A DNA stretch of 64,000 nucleotides from Sporichthya brevicatena. Lineage in GTDB: Bacteria > Actinomycetota > Actinomycetes > Sporichthyales > Sporichthyaceae. The position numbers were made by a program, and so were the translations under genes. Below are positions 52,980 through 63,665 of this stretch, piece after piece. The notes under the pieces were generated by a model, which saw only the letters and a list, made by a program, of their open reading frames with translations, was not told the origin of the DNA and made no database searches. Every line of letters begins with the position of its first letter. The first letter of the stretch is position 1. Location: positions 1 to 64,000 of the forward strand of contig NZ_BAAAHE010000006.1 of the NCBI RefSeq assembly GCF_039525035.1, written 5' to 3'.

Positions 52980-53585
52980 GTGCCGCACCTGATTCTTGCC
53001 TCCGCCTCCCCCGCCCGCCTCACCACGCTGCGGCGGGCCGGGCTGAACCCGGAGGTGATCGTCAGCGACGTCGACGAGACCGCGGTGTTCGGCCCAACGC
53101 CCGCGGCGACCGCCGAACTGCTCGCGACCATGAAGGCCGAGGCCGTGGTGGGGCGCATCGAGCCGGTGCCGGGCACCGTCGTCCTCGGGTGCGACTCCCT
53201 GCTCGAACTCGACGGCCAGGCGCTCGGCAAGCCCGAGACCACGGAGGCCGCGACCGAGCGGTGGCGCGCGATGCGTGGCCGCACCGGCGTGCTGCACACC
53301 GGCCACTGCCTGATGGAGCCGGCCACCGGCCGCCGCGCGGTCGCGACCGCCTCGACCACCGTCCGGTTCGCCGACGTCACCGACGCCGAGATCGGGGCCT
53401 ACGTCGCCACCGGCGAACCCCTCCGGGTGGCGGGCGCCTTCACGATCGACGGCCGCGGCGGCGCGTTCGTCGAGGGCATCGAGGGCGACCACCACAACGT
53501 CGTCGGCGTCTCCCTGCCGCTGCTCCGCCGCCTCTGCGCCGCCCTCGGCATCGCCTGGACCGCCCTCTGGGAGCTCCCCGCCTGA
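52980..53585 (+). CDS. maf: Maf-family nucleoside triphosphate pyrophosphatase
   Basis: A 201-residue Maf protein. It has LILASASPARLTTLRRAGL with the conserved SAS, DVDET, LATMKAEAV with the catalytic-type Lys, VLGCDSLLELDG with the Asp, and GRTGVLHTGHCL. The C-terminal AGAFTIDGRGGAFVEGIEGD contains the family's GxFxIxGxGxxF motif. Maf proteins hydrolyse modified or non-canonical nucleotides. It corresponds in gene order to Rv3282 after accE5, but here ten genes intervene. Start GTG 52980. Confidence 0.92.
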   Translation: MPHLILASASPARLTTLRRAGLNPEVIVSDVDETAVFGPTPAATAELLATMKAEAVVGRIEPVPGTVVLGCDSLLELDGQALGKPETTEAATERWRAMRGRTGVLHTGHCLMEPATGRRAVATASTTVRFADVTDAEIGAYVATGEPLRVAGAFTIDGRGGAFVEGIEGDHHNVVGVSLPLLRRLCAALGIAWTALWELPA

Positions 53586-53620
53586 CGCCGCCCGGCACCC
53601 CACCCGCCGCCGCCGTTGTC

Positions 53621-53670
53621 AACAAAGGGTGACACCCCTTACTGCGCAGTAAGGGGTGTCACCCTTTGTT
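53621..53670. repeat. 50-bp perfect palindrome, family A copy 1
   Basis: 25-base arms with no mismatch, centred between 53645 and 53646. The middle is CTTACTGCGCAGTAAG and each flank carries its own odd palindrome, GGGTGACACCC on the left and GGGTGTCACCC on the right. It lies 36 bases after the maf stop. A second copy of the same element is at 63610-63665. Confidence 0.85.
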
Positions 53671-53755
53671 TCACGGGGGCGGCGGCGGAAACCGATGAGT
53701 TCCGGTTGTCGGCGGAGTCTGGTGAGGTGAGAACCCCGGACAAGGACGGTGACGC

Positions 53756-54856
53756 ATGTCCAGCGCGCTGGTAGCGATCGGCACGGCGAAAGGGCTGTTC
53801 CTGGCCCGCAGCGACGACGACCGGAGGAGCTGGTCCCTGACCGGACCCCACTTCGGGATGAGCGAGGTCTACTCGGCCGCGATCGACACCCGCGGCGGGC
53901 GCACGCGCATCCTCGCCGGGGCGATGAGCTGGCACTGGGGCCCGATGGTCGTCCGGTCCGACGACCTCGGCGCGACCTGGGTCGACACCGAGCGCGGCGC
54001 GGTCCGGTTCCCGGAGGGGACGGACGCGGCGGTCGCGCGCGTCTGGCAACTCGCCCCGGCGCCGGCGGACCAGCCCGGCGTCGTCTACGCCGGTGTGGAG
54101 CCCTCCGCGCTGTTCCGCTCGACCGACGGCGGCGAGACGTTCTCGCTCGTCGAGGGCCTGTGGAACCACCCCCACCGCAAGGAGTGGCAGCCCGGCGGTG
54201 GCGGCCAGGCGCTGCACACCGTCCTGCCGCACCCGACCCACCCGGACCGGGTCCTGGTCGCGATGTCGACCGGCGGGGTCTACCGGACCACCGACGGGGG
54301 TGAGTCGTGGTCACCGGCGAACCGCGGGATCGAGGCCGACTTCCTGCCCGGCGACGAGCCGGAGTTCGGCCAGTGCGTGCACAAGGTGGCACGGAACCCG
54401 CAACGGCCCGAGCAGTTGTTCGCCCAGAACCACGGCGGGGTCTACCGCAGCGACGACGGCGGCGACCGCTGGGTCTCGATCGTCGAGGGCCTGCCGGCGG
54501 ACTTCGGGTTCCCGATGGTCGCCGACCCGAACGTGCCCGGCTCGGTCTTCGTCTTCCCCATCGTGTCGGGCGAGGAGCGGTTCCCGCCCGAGCGCAAGTG
54601 CCGCGTCTACCGCACCGACGACGCGGGCGCGACGTGGTCGGCGCTGACCAACGGCCTCCCCGCGGACCCGCACTACGGGGCGGTGCTCCGCGACGGGATG
54701 TGCGCCGACGACGCCGACCCCGTCGGCGTGTACTTCGGCAACCGCAACGGCGAGGTCTACGCCACCGCCGACCGCGGCGAGAGCTGGCAGCAGATCGCGG
54801 CCCACCTGCCGCCGGTGCTGTGCGTGAAGGCCGCCGTGCTCCCGGAGCCGGCGTGA
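53756..54856 (+). CDS. BNR/sialidase-like beta-propeller protein
   Basis: A 366-residue propeller with BNR-type blades: SDDLGATW, STDGGETF, TTDGGESW, SDDGGDRW, TDDAGATWSALTNGLP and TADRGESWQQI, spread through the protein. There is no signal peptide, so it is probably cytosolic, which is unusual for a sialidase-like fold. AAGGACGG precedes the ATG. Its stop overlaps the start of a MoaD/ThiS-like gene in a GTGA junction. The conserved pairing suggests a joint function, but none has been shown; sialidase activity should not be assumed. Confidence 0.85.
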   Translation: MSSALVAIGTAKGLFLARSDDDRRSWSLTGPHFGMSEVYSAAIDTRGGRTRILAGAMSWHWGPMVVRSDDLGATWVDTERGAVRFPEGTDAAVARVWQLAPAPADQPGVVYAGVEPSALFRSTDGGETFSLVEGLWNHPHRKEWQPGGGGQALHTVLPHPTHPDRVLVAMSTGGVYRTTDGGESWSPANRGIEADFLPGDEPEFGQCVHKVARNPQRPEQLFAQNHGGVYRSDDGGDRWVSIVEGLPADFGFPMVADPNVPGSVFVFPIVSGEERFPPERKCRVYRTDDAGATWSALTNGLPADPHYGAVLRDGMCADDADPVGVYFGNRNGEVYATADRGESWQQIAAHLPPVLCVKAAVLPEPA

Positions 54857-55140
54857 TCGAGGTCCCGGTCCGCCTGCCCGCGATCCTGCGTGGGTTCGCG
54901 GGCGGGCAGGCCGTCCTGCACGTGCCGCTCGACGGGAACGCGACCGTCGGCGCCCTCCTCGACCGGCTCGCGGCCGAGCGACCCGCGCTGGAACGGCGGA
55001 TCCGCGACGAACGTGGCGTCCTGCGCCCGCACGTGAACGTGTTCGTGCACAAGACGAACGTCCGGGACACCGGTGGCCTCGCGACCGAGATCCCGCCCGG
55101 CGTCGAGGTGCTGGTGATCCCGGCGGTGTCCGGGGGCTAG
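54853..55140 (+). CDS. MoaD/ThiS-like ubiquitin-fold protein
   Basis: A 95-residue beta-grasp protein. Its C-terminus ends in ...VLVIPAVSGG, the diglycine tail used by MoaD and ThiS for adenylation and sulfur transfer. The core is VPVRLPAILRGFAGGQAVLH and NATVGALLDRLAAERPALER. The GTG start lies within the stop of the propeller gene. An E1-like MoeB/ThiF partner is not encoded nearby. It could act as a sulfur carrier or a protein modifier. Confidence 0.85.
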   Translation: MIEVPVRLPAILRGFAGGQAVLHVPLDGNATVGALLDRLAAERPALERRIRDERGVLRPHVNVFVHKTNVRDTGGLATEIPPGVEVLVIPAVSGG

Positions 55141-55150
55141 GCGGTCCCGG

Positions 55151-55336
55151 TCAGGCGATGCAGTAGAGCTCGGCCCCCGCCGCGGCGGCGACCGTGGCGA
55201 CCACCGGGCACAGGTCGCAGGCCCCGCCGACGCAGTTCGTCTGACTCGGCGTCATCACCGGCGCGACGACGCCGGGCATCGTCACCATCGCCAGCCCCAC
55301 CAACGGGGCGAGGACCCTGAGCAGCCGGTTCCACAT
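55151..55336 (-). CDS. Small Cys-containing exported or membrane peptide
   Basis: A 61-residue protein, ATG 55336. The first 28 residues are hydrophobic (LLRVLAPLVGLAMVTMPGVV), like a signal peptide or membrane anchor. The rest has CVGGACDLCP (residues 35-44) and YCIA near the end: four cysteines, which could bind a metal or form disulfides. It is separated by only 4 bases from the TetR gene that precedes it on the same strand, so the two are likely co-transcribed. No family recognised. Confidence 0.6.
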   Translation of the reverse strand: MWNRLLRVLAPLVGLAMVTMPGVVAPVMTPSQTNCVGGACDLCPVVATVAAAAGAELYCIA

Positions 55337-55340
55337 CCCG

Positions 55341-55931
55341 TCAGTGTGCGCCCGATGCCGCGCCGGCTCCAGTCGTTCCGGCCAGGTCGTGCAACTGGGC
55401 CAGGGCCTCGTCGACGAAGTCGGCGAACGTACGGCGGCCGCGGGAGGTCACCCACCGCGCGAACGCGACCTTGAAGACCGCCATCCCGGTCTCGGCCGCC
55501 AGCCCGGCCGCGGGCTCCTTGACGCCCCGGCGACGCAGGGCGTCGGTGAGGGCCCCGGAGAGCCGGGCGAGCTTGATCAACTCCCGCTCCCGCAGGTCGG
55601 CGTTGGCCGTGATGACCTCGTGCCGGCTCCGGGAGAGCTCCCGCGGCGGGAAGTAGTCACTCGCGGCCCGCAACGCGGCGGCGACCTGGTCCAGCGCCGG
55701 GGTCGACGCCGGGGTCGCGGCGAGCGCGGCGACCATCACCTCCTCCAAGGCCTCCGCCCCGGAGAAGAGCACCTCACGCTTGTCCGCGAAGTAGCGGAAG
55801 AAGGTCCGCTCGGTGACGCCGACGCGTTCGGCGATCTGCGCGACGGTCGTCGCCTCGAACCCGTGCTCGCTGTAGAGCTCGAGCGCCGCGGCGCAGAGGC
55901 GACCCTTCGCGTCAGGCTCCCAACGACCCAT
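55341..55931 (-). CDS. TetR-family transcriptional repressor
   Basis: A 196-residue regulator. The helix-turn-helix is at about residues 8-55 (KGRLCAAALELYSEHGF, TTVAQIAERVGVTERTFFRY). The ligand-binding domain contains a PPRELSRSRHEVITANADLR region. Three copies of one 19-bp operator lie between it and the divergent epimerase gene, the nearest one just upstream of its own TACGCT -10 box, so it probably represses both directions. The transcript is predicted to be leaderless. Confidence 0.92.
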   Translation of the reverse strand: MGRWEPDAKGRLCAAALELYSEHGFEATTVAQIAERVGVTERTFFRYFADKREVLFSGAEALEEVMVAALAATPASTPALDQVAAALRAASDYFPPRELSRSRHEVITANADLRERELIKLARLSGALTDALRRRGVKEPAAGLAAETGMAVFKVAFARWVTSRGRRTFADFVDEALAQLHDLAGTTGAGAASGAH

Positions 55932-55938
55932 GGCTACC

Positions 55939-55944
55939 AGCGTA
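55939..55944 (-). promoter_or_regulatory. -10 box of the TetR gene
   Basis: TACGCT on the minus strand lies 7 bases before the ATG of the TetR gene, and operator 1 begins 3 bases further upstream, overlapping the -10/-35 spacer. Binding there would block the promoter. Confidence 0.45.
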
Positions 55945-55947
55945 GGC

Positions 55948-55966
55948 GATGACAGATTCTGACATC
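55948..55966. promoter_or_regulatory. TetR operator 1
   Basis: GATGACAGATTCTGACATC, a 19-bp near-palindrome with one mismatch to the consensus half-site GATGTCAG...CTGACATC. Centre at 55957. Confidence 0.75.
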
Positions 55967-55980
55967 AGTCGCTTCGCGGT

Positions 55981-55999
55981 GATGACAGAGACTGACATC
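55981..55999. promoter_or_regulatory. TetR operator 2 over the epimerase -35 box
   Basis: GATGACAGAGACTGACATC, with the same one-base mismatch as operator 1. Centre at 55990, 33 bp from operator 1. It covers the likely -35 box ATGACA (55982-55987) of the epimerase gene, which pairs with TACCGT (56006-56011) across an 18-base spacer. Confidence 0.75.
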
Positions 56000-56012
56000 G
56001 TGACGTACCGTC

Positions 56013-63609: not shown

Positions 63610-63665
63610 GTCAAGAAAGGGTGTCACCCCTTACTGCGCAGTAAGGGGTGTCACCCTTTCTTGAC
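63610..63665. repeat. 56-bp palindrome, family A copy 2
   Basis: 28-base arms with one mismatched pair, centred between 63637 and 63638. The core CCTTACTGCGCAGTAAGG and the flanking GGGTGTCACC elements are the same as in the copy at 53621-53670; only the outermost bases (GTCAAG/CTTGAC here) and one internal base differ. It lies 47 bases after the stop of the enoyl-CoA hydratase gene. Confidence 0.85.

Follow-up and report, generated by a model that had tools for sequence, protein, structure and literature searches.

An Asp-box beta-propeller and a CysO/SAMP1-type diglycine protein form a recurrent gene pair and a candidate sulfur-transfer module

Pairs of sulfur carriers and acceptors are already known, but an acceptor with a propeller fold has not been described in the literature searched. 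The CysO-CysM-Mec system of Mycobacterium, which is also present in the genome studied here (G000:C16), shares its carrier family, tail and E1 type with the locus described below, and a JAB protease occurs in the cell. Its acceptor is the PLP enzyme CysM, whereas the neighbour of the carrier at this locus is a beta-propeller. The enzyme BexX is ThiG-like and not a propeller either. In BexX/CysO 2-thiosugar synthesis (PDB 4n6e), the CysO carrier is close to the small protein of this locus in sequence and fold, and a passage of PMC5321127 on BexX and MoeZ describes how carrier proteins of primary metabolism are shared with the enzyme of another pathway. Mycobacterial MoeZR thiocarboxylates CysO and MoaD2 (PMC3227635). 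In the MoaD-MoaE and MoaX systems, the carrier adjoins or is fused to its acceptor, as in the family described here, but the acceptor fold is unrelated to the propeller; in M. tuberculosis, MoaX is cleaved directly behind its GG (PMC4326299). Haloferax SAMP1 (PDB 3po0, 4hro) is an archaeal modifier, to which the small protein is likened by its NCBIfam equivalog match and its predicted fold. Searches of open-licence PMC papers found no description of a propeller-carrier pair, in line with an earlier note on this DNA whose author knew of no described function for it. The words "propeller", "BNR" and "sialidase" do not occur in PMC1779556 and PMC2948915, "propeller" occurs once in PMC1949818, and no paper was found on a guessed pair of P. 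aeruginosa PAO1 locus tags.

The window, i.e. the whole stretch of DNA that was analysed, comprises 64,000 nucleotides of Sporichthya brevicatena (NZ_BAAAHE010000006.1, positions 1 to 64,000). The features of interest are:

53756..54856, + strand, Asp-box (BNR) propeller gene, 366 aa, ATG start at 53756
53789..53791, + strand, Lys12 codon of the propeller, conserved in 139/140 propellers
54215..54217, + strand, His154 codon, invariant in 140/140
54380..54382, + strand, His209 codon, invariant in 140/140
54425..54433, + strand, Gln224 and His226 codons, each invariant in 140/140
54689..54691, + strand, Arg312 codon, invariant in 140/140
54853..54856, + strand, GTGA overlap of 4 bases between propeller stop and partner start, read from the sequence
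54853..55140, + strand, gene of the partner, a CysO/SAMP1-type beta-grasp protein (ThiS family), 95 aa, GTG start, ending in SGG
55132..55137, + strand, terminal diglycine codons of the partner, GG in 102/103 intact partners

Both the coordinates and the profile matches agree with the earlier description of a propeller gene that overlaps by four bases with a gene for a 95-residue ubiquitin-fold protein ending in GG. A GGAG motif lies 5 bases 5' of the partner's GTG in the sequence, and the GTGA overlap likely couples the translation of the two proteins. According to Pfam and NCBIfam, the upstream neighbours are a Maf-like gene (+) and a cupin/HgmA-like gene (-); a 61-aa orphan ORF, a TetR gene (-) and an epimerase gene (+) follow downstream. 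The orphan ORF (minus strand, 55151-55336) directly follows the pair and has no Pfam match. Pfam matches of the neighbours likewise agree with the previous statement that molybdopterin and thiamine genes are not adjacent, as neither MoaE, ThiG nor their sister proteins were found among them, and no CysM or Mec gene adjoins the pair in the window. The propeller had also been called cytosolic; by eye, no N-terminal signal sequence is visible, which is the sole basis for this term. Compared with a sister genome, dN/dS is 0.10 for the propeller and 0.24 for the partner, indicating purifying selection on both. Chance adjacency is ruled out because of these values and since the two genes are neighbours in dozens of genera from two phyla.

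The occurrence of the pair was surveyed in several samples. The first set comprised 60 relatives, 40 of which gave a propeller match with E <= 0.001. Of 30 loci selected from it, 10 of the 19 closer propeller loci and all 10 loci of a more distant propeller subfamily (L024-L033) have a partner downstream, and the thirtieth locus (L034) ends at a contig edge. Among the best 80 named propeller loci, all from Actinomycetota, 31 have a partner, and none of those from Streptomyces or Nocardioides does. A sample of the window's class contained the propeller in 136 of 296 genomes, with an adjacent partner in at least 59 and without one in at most 77. The best 51 partner matches in this sample include 50 beside a propeller and one, in genome G098, that adjoins a damaged propeller; none of the 51 is an intact partner of the subfamily lying apart from a propeller. 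The retention of one gene without the other, which the earlier note had named as an argument against its proposal, is thus seen for the propeller but not, in these best 51 matches, for the partner. An evenly drawn phylum sample has the propeller in 57 of 198 genomes, at 58 loci, 47 of which have an adjacent or fused partner. Outside the window's class this applies to 43 of 47 loci, and the four unpaired ones (L169, L195, L197, L198) all belong to one family, f83.

Twelve of 15 plasmid records with a propeller were taken (H8, H9 and H14 were left out), and a thirteenth was added later. At all six intact beta- and gamma-proteobacterial loci (L117, L119, L121, L123, L124, L125), the partner lies upstream, i.e. 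in reversed order, and its tail is ALSGG or ALTGG. Three Rhodobacterales plasmid loci have a propeller without a partner. The unpaired propeller of Rhodobacter sp. CZR27 (L116) lies beside egtB and egtD of ergothioneine synthesis on the opposite strand, which may be a coincidence. A tree was built from 93 of the 122 propellers, omitting L034, which is too short, and the Streptomyces sequences beyond the first eight titled loci. On this tree, pairing requires 9 changes, a count that is itself blind to gain versus loss, compared with 27.9 on average when the labels are shuffled, and paired propellers occur on either side of the deepest split. We read the pair as old, with repeated losses. ORF clustering of loci L035-L126 revealed no third conserved gene shared beside the pair, be it for a substrate, ligase, kinase or cofactor; in the part of the output considered, recurrent extra neighbours stem from unpaired, mostly Streptomyces, loci.

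Eight genomes (loci L179, L180, L182-L185, L187, L196) encode both proteins in a single uninterrupted ORF, in which a ThiS domain ending in (I/V)SGG is followed by a linker and the propeller. A three-gene operon (L141; G199:C18:74000-83000) has two divergent propellers on either side of one ThiS protein that ends in NVSGG. Both genes are damaged in the two broken loci inspected. At L130 (genome G098), the propeller gene carries a frameshift and is shortened, and its partner shows GA where other partners have GG and continues beyond it. At L145 (Paraburkholderia phymatum), a frameshift and a stop interrupt the propeller, and an internal stop interrupts the partner. General decay of the region could also account for this joint damage. 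The wide conservation, the reversed order in the other phylum, the eight fusions and the two joint decays strongly support a functional pair, and the two proteins very probably work together. As the partner is almost never found without the propeller and the propeller often without the partner, the distribution points to the propeller as the working component, served by a dedicated small donor protein that another carrier can replace. The propeller is intact in many lineages without an adjacent carrier, and therefore the carrier is either not strictly needed or replaced there.

All comparisons place the partner in the CysO/SAMP1-type beta-grasp fold. It matches Pfam ThiS with 41 bits (cut-off 22.5), the NCBIfam SAMP1 equivalog with 65.6 bits (cut-off 60) and, using phmmer, M. 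tuberculosis CysO (3dwg) with an E-value of 8.5e-12. A Foldseek search with its AlphaFold2 model (pLDDT 93.2) retrieved 3dwg_C first (TM 0.84/0.87), then the CysO of the BexX complex and then SAMP1. On a ThiS tree, from which the broken L130 was excluded, the partners lie on one side of a branch whose support is only 24, owing to too few columns. The protein ends in IPAVSGG, with the SGG codons at 55129-55137, and the tails PAVSGG and PSVAGG of the partners resemble the PAVAGG of CysO. At two other loci (L135 in G182 and L136 in G041), CysO-like proteins end in PAVAGGC, a single Cys following the diglycine; at L135 the ORF immediately upstream is CysM/threonine-synthase-like and overlaps, and no such match was found at L136.

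The window genome contains a single full E1 with ThiF and rhodanese domains (MoeZR-type, G000:C30:1729). A candidate cognate E1 is present as a gene, and its action on the partner is predicted. One JAB protease is encoded beside cysO and a CysM-like gene (G000:C16; names partly assigned by eye), a ThiS protein lies in a thiamine-like operon elsewhere beside a thiG-like gene (names assigned by eye), and there is one more MoaD-like protein. Because of the CysO-type fold, the tail and the MoeZR-type E1 in the cell, sulfur transfer is the favoured reading, and we assign a probability of about 0.5 to a two-component sulfur-transfer module with the propeller as acceptor. The lack of a conserved substrate, ligase, kinase or cofactor gene beside the pair counts against it. 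In such a module, the partner would act as a sulfur carrier of the CysO/SAMP1 type, whose GG tail would be adenylated by the E1 encoded elsewhere and converted to a thiocarboxylate. Extended or fused tails would first be cut after the GG by a protease, plausibly of the Mec/JAB type. The carrier would then dock on the propeller, where a putative pocket of His154, His209, His226, Gln224, Lys12, Arg312 and Ser171 together with Trp97 and Trp144 would hold an acceptor substrate, perhaps with a metal, that receives the sulfur. Lineages that have lost the dedicated carrier may use another one, for example CysO. The steps from thiocarboxylation and trimming to docking and catalysis are inferred, as is the single pocket.

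The diglycine is present in 102 of 103 intact partners (59, 43 newly read and that of L141) from two phyla, which agrees with the previously expected conservation of the tail among homologues. It was not foreseen that the GG is often not the C-terminus: it ends the protein in 80 of the 103, two of which end in GGG, and is followed by further residues in 22. Twelve separate partners have 1-25 residues after the GG, among them AAP in that of L065, and in the eight fusions the SGG is retained ahead of variable linkers of 3-24 residues. That it is kept despite this variability suggests a need for the GG to be freed, as in MoaX. One intact partner, in Nonomuraea (L122), ends in LPALA without a GG beside an intact propeller and may represent an intermediate step towards loss of carrier function. 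The internal GGs and this GG-less protein also fit a structural role. In that case, the beta-grasp protein would be a structural or regulatory subunit whose GG loop docks in or near the pocket without any thiocarboxylate chemistry. The fusions and extended tails, a single case in which ThiS-AGG is fused to a 4HBT thioesterase domain (Catelliglobosispora koreensis, L077:7059-7751) and the survival of the propeller alone with the same invariant residues all speak for such a subunit. However, the near-universal GG in two phyla, even before variable linkers, the CysO-like tail and the constant presence of an E1 in propeller genomes make it rather unlikely.

Co-occurrence with MoeB, ThiF or rhodanese genes had been proposed as a check. 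Outside the window's class, an E1 above the cut-off is present in 46 of 46 propeller genomes compared with 33 of 42 propeller-free ones, and a JAB protease in 46 of 46 compared with 22 of 42. The controls were 42 consecutive genomes of the phylum sample that are absent from its propeller match list. Fisher's test, which ignores relatedness, gives p = 8e-4 for E1 and 2e-8 for JAB; with controls of at least 2.2 Mb, the value for JAB is 1e-5, which ignores relatedness and part of the genome-size effect. E1 and JAB could also serve protein tagging, with the partner as a SAMP-like lysine modifier and the propeller as its main target, reader or deconjugating enzyme. The SAMP1 equivalog match above its cut-off and the resemblance of the extended GG precursors to processed ubiquitin-like modifiers point in the same direction. 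CysO itself, however, is SAMP1-like and yet carries sulfur, the surroundings of the pair show no recurrent third gene (an E2-like one, for instance), and the near-invariant Lys12 appears to belong to the conserved residue set rather than to a free surface, so that we regard tagging as improbable. Of the sulfur-transfer or tagging pair proposed in the earlier note, the functional link is strongly supported and sulfur transfer is the better supported of its two roles.

By sequence and predicted structure, the propeller belongs to the seven-bladed Asp-box propellers of the 3b7f family. Its Pfam matches are Sortilin-Vps10 (4e-14) and BNR (1e-11). PDB 3b7f is its closest and only close solved relative (E=1e-74; E=5e-113 for the family profile A5), and the AlphaFold2 model (pLDDT 91.5) superimposes on it with a TM of 0.92 and a Z of 51.0. 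The structure alignments A3 and A4 contained 49 and 29 sequences, respectively. This relative is Reut_B4987 of Ralstonia eutropha, a "putative glycosyl hydrolase with BNR repeats" solved alone without a partner, and PMC2716378 lists its function as "Not known". The next structural matches are remote and led by GH74 enzymes (Z ~28); DAIP, Ycf48 and sortilin are among the other Foldseek matches (TM ~0.3 to 0.6).

In 140 propellers from both phyla, paired and unpaired, W97, W144, H154, S171, H209, Q224, H226 and R312 are each invariant (140/140) and K12 is present in 139, and no acidic residue outside the Asp-boxes is invariant. In a propeller, the starts of the inner strands and the B-C turns share one face. 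According to the strand order of the model, H154, H209 and R312 lie at or next to inner-strand starts, W97 two residues into an inner strand, K12, S171, Q224 and H226 in or next to turns between strands B and C, and W144 in an inserted loop. By this strand order and topology, the invariant residues may form one pocket. Oligogalacturonate lyase (PL22) holds a metal on its propeller with three His and one Gln. The invariant H154, H209, H226 and Q224 resemble this set in residue type; no PL22 chain was noticed among the fold and profile matches listed for the propeller, and the literature search returned nothing on such a kinship. A more specific form of the sulfur-transfer reading can be put forward tentatively: a sulfur-inserting beta-propeller with a His3-Gln pocket, possibly metal-binding, supplied by a dedicated thiocarboxylated carrier that in some lineages is a fused precursor cut after its diglycine. 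A conserved cysteine was also considered as sulfur acceptor. The candidate, Cys207, does not vary in most actinobacterial propellers, yet it is Asp in 8 of the 140, and therefore a universally conserved cysteine acceptor was rejected. In many lineages, unpaired propellers are intact and keep the same invariant residues. No clear docking patch separates them from paired ones, only scattered positions (I8, A17, D21, R165, M170 and a few more).

Some of the Foldseek neighbours bind peptides or protein fragments (Ycf48 with a D1 peptide, DAIP with a thermolysin fragment, and sortilin-ligand complexes), and by this likeness the propeller could be a chaperone for the C-terminal tail of another protein or of the carrier, which it would bind for protection or delivery. 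These remote matches share only the common fold, however, and the invariant His, Gln, Lys and Arg set is more reminiscent of an active or metal site, which leaves a tail-binding chaperone highly doubtful. Databases label the family "sialidase family" or "exo-alpha-sialidase". GH33 sialidases use an Arg triad with catalytic Tyr, Glu and Asp, and GH74 xyloglucanases use two catalytic Asp. In the 140 propellers, R312 is the only Arg that never varies, none of the Tyr and Glu residues and no Asp outside the Asp-boxes is invariant, and the likeness to GH74 is a remote one of fold. The name exo-alpha-sialidase is thus a poor one, because no acid outside the Asp-boxes is invariant, and is not supported by the sequences. 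An ordinary glycosidase (exo-alpha-sialidase) beside an unrelated small protein can practically be dismissed despite the database names and the GH74 enzymes as best structural relatives after 3b7f, since the GH33 and GH74 acid/base pairs are absent and a neighbour with no relation to the propeller is incompatible with the adjacency and the fusions.

Compared with known carrier systems, the new elements would be a propeller as acceptor and precursors that join carrier and propeller. Misleading names are attached to the propeller in tens of genera from Actinomycetota and Proteobacteria, and the 3b7f structure, released in 2007, was listed with no function. The gene pair and its natural fusions provide a direct handle on this family. 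If the sulfur-transfer reading is true, carrier-based sulfur chemistry would gain a propeller among its acceptor folds. The fusions with an internal GG are also a bacterial parallel to processed ubiquitin-like precursors.

No Rfam match was found in window positions 53000-56000. The window contains a perfect 50-bp palindrome (2 x 25, 53621-53670) in the interval that separates the Maf gene from the propeller gene. Its 38-bp core occurs in 103 copies with at most 3 mismatches in the 5.2-Mb genome, compared with 0 for a backwards control, and all genomic copies listed are without mismatch. A second copy in the window (63619-63656) has one mismatch. The palindrome is possibly a dispersed palindromic element or a terminator.
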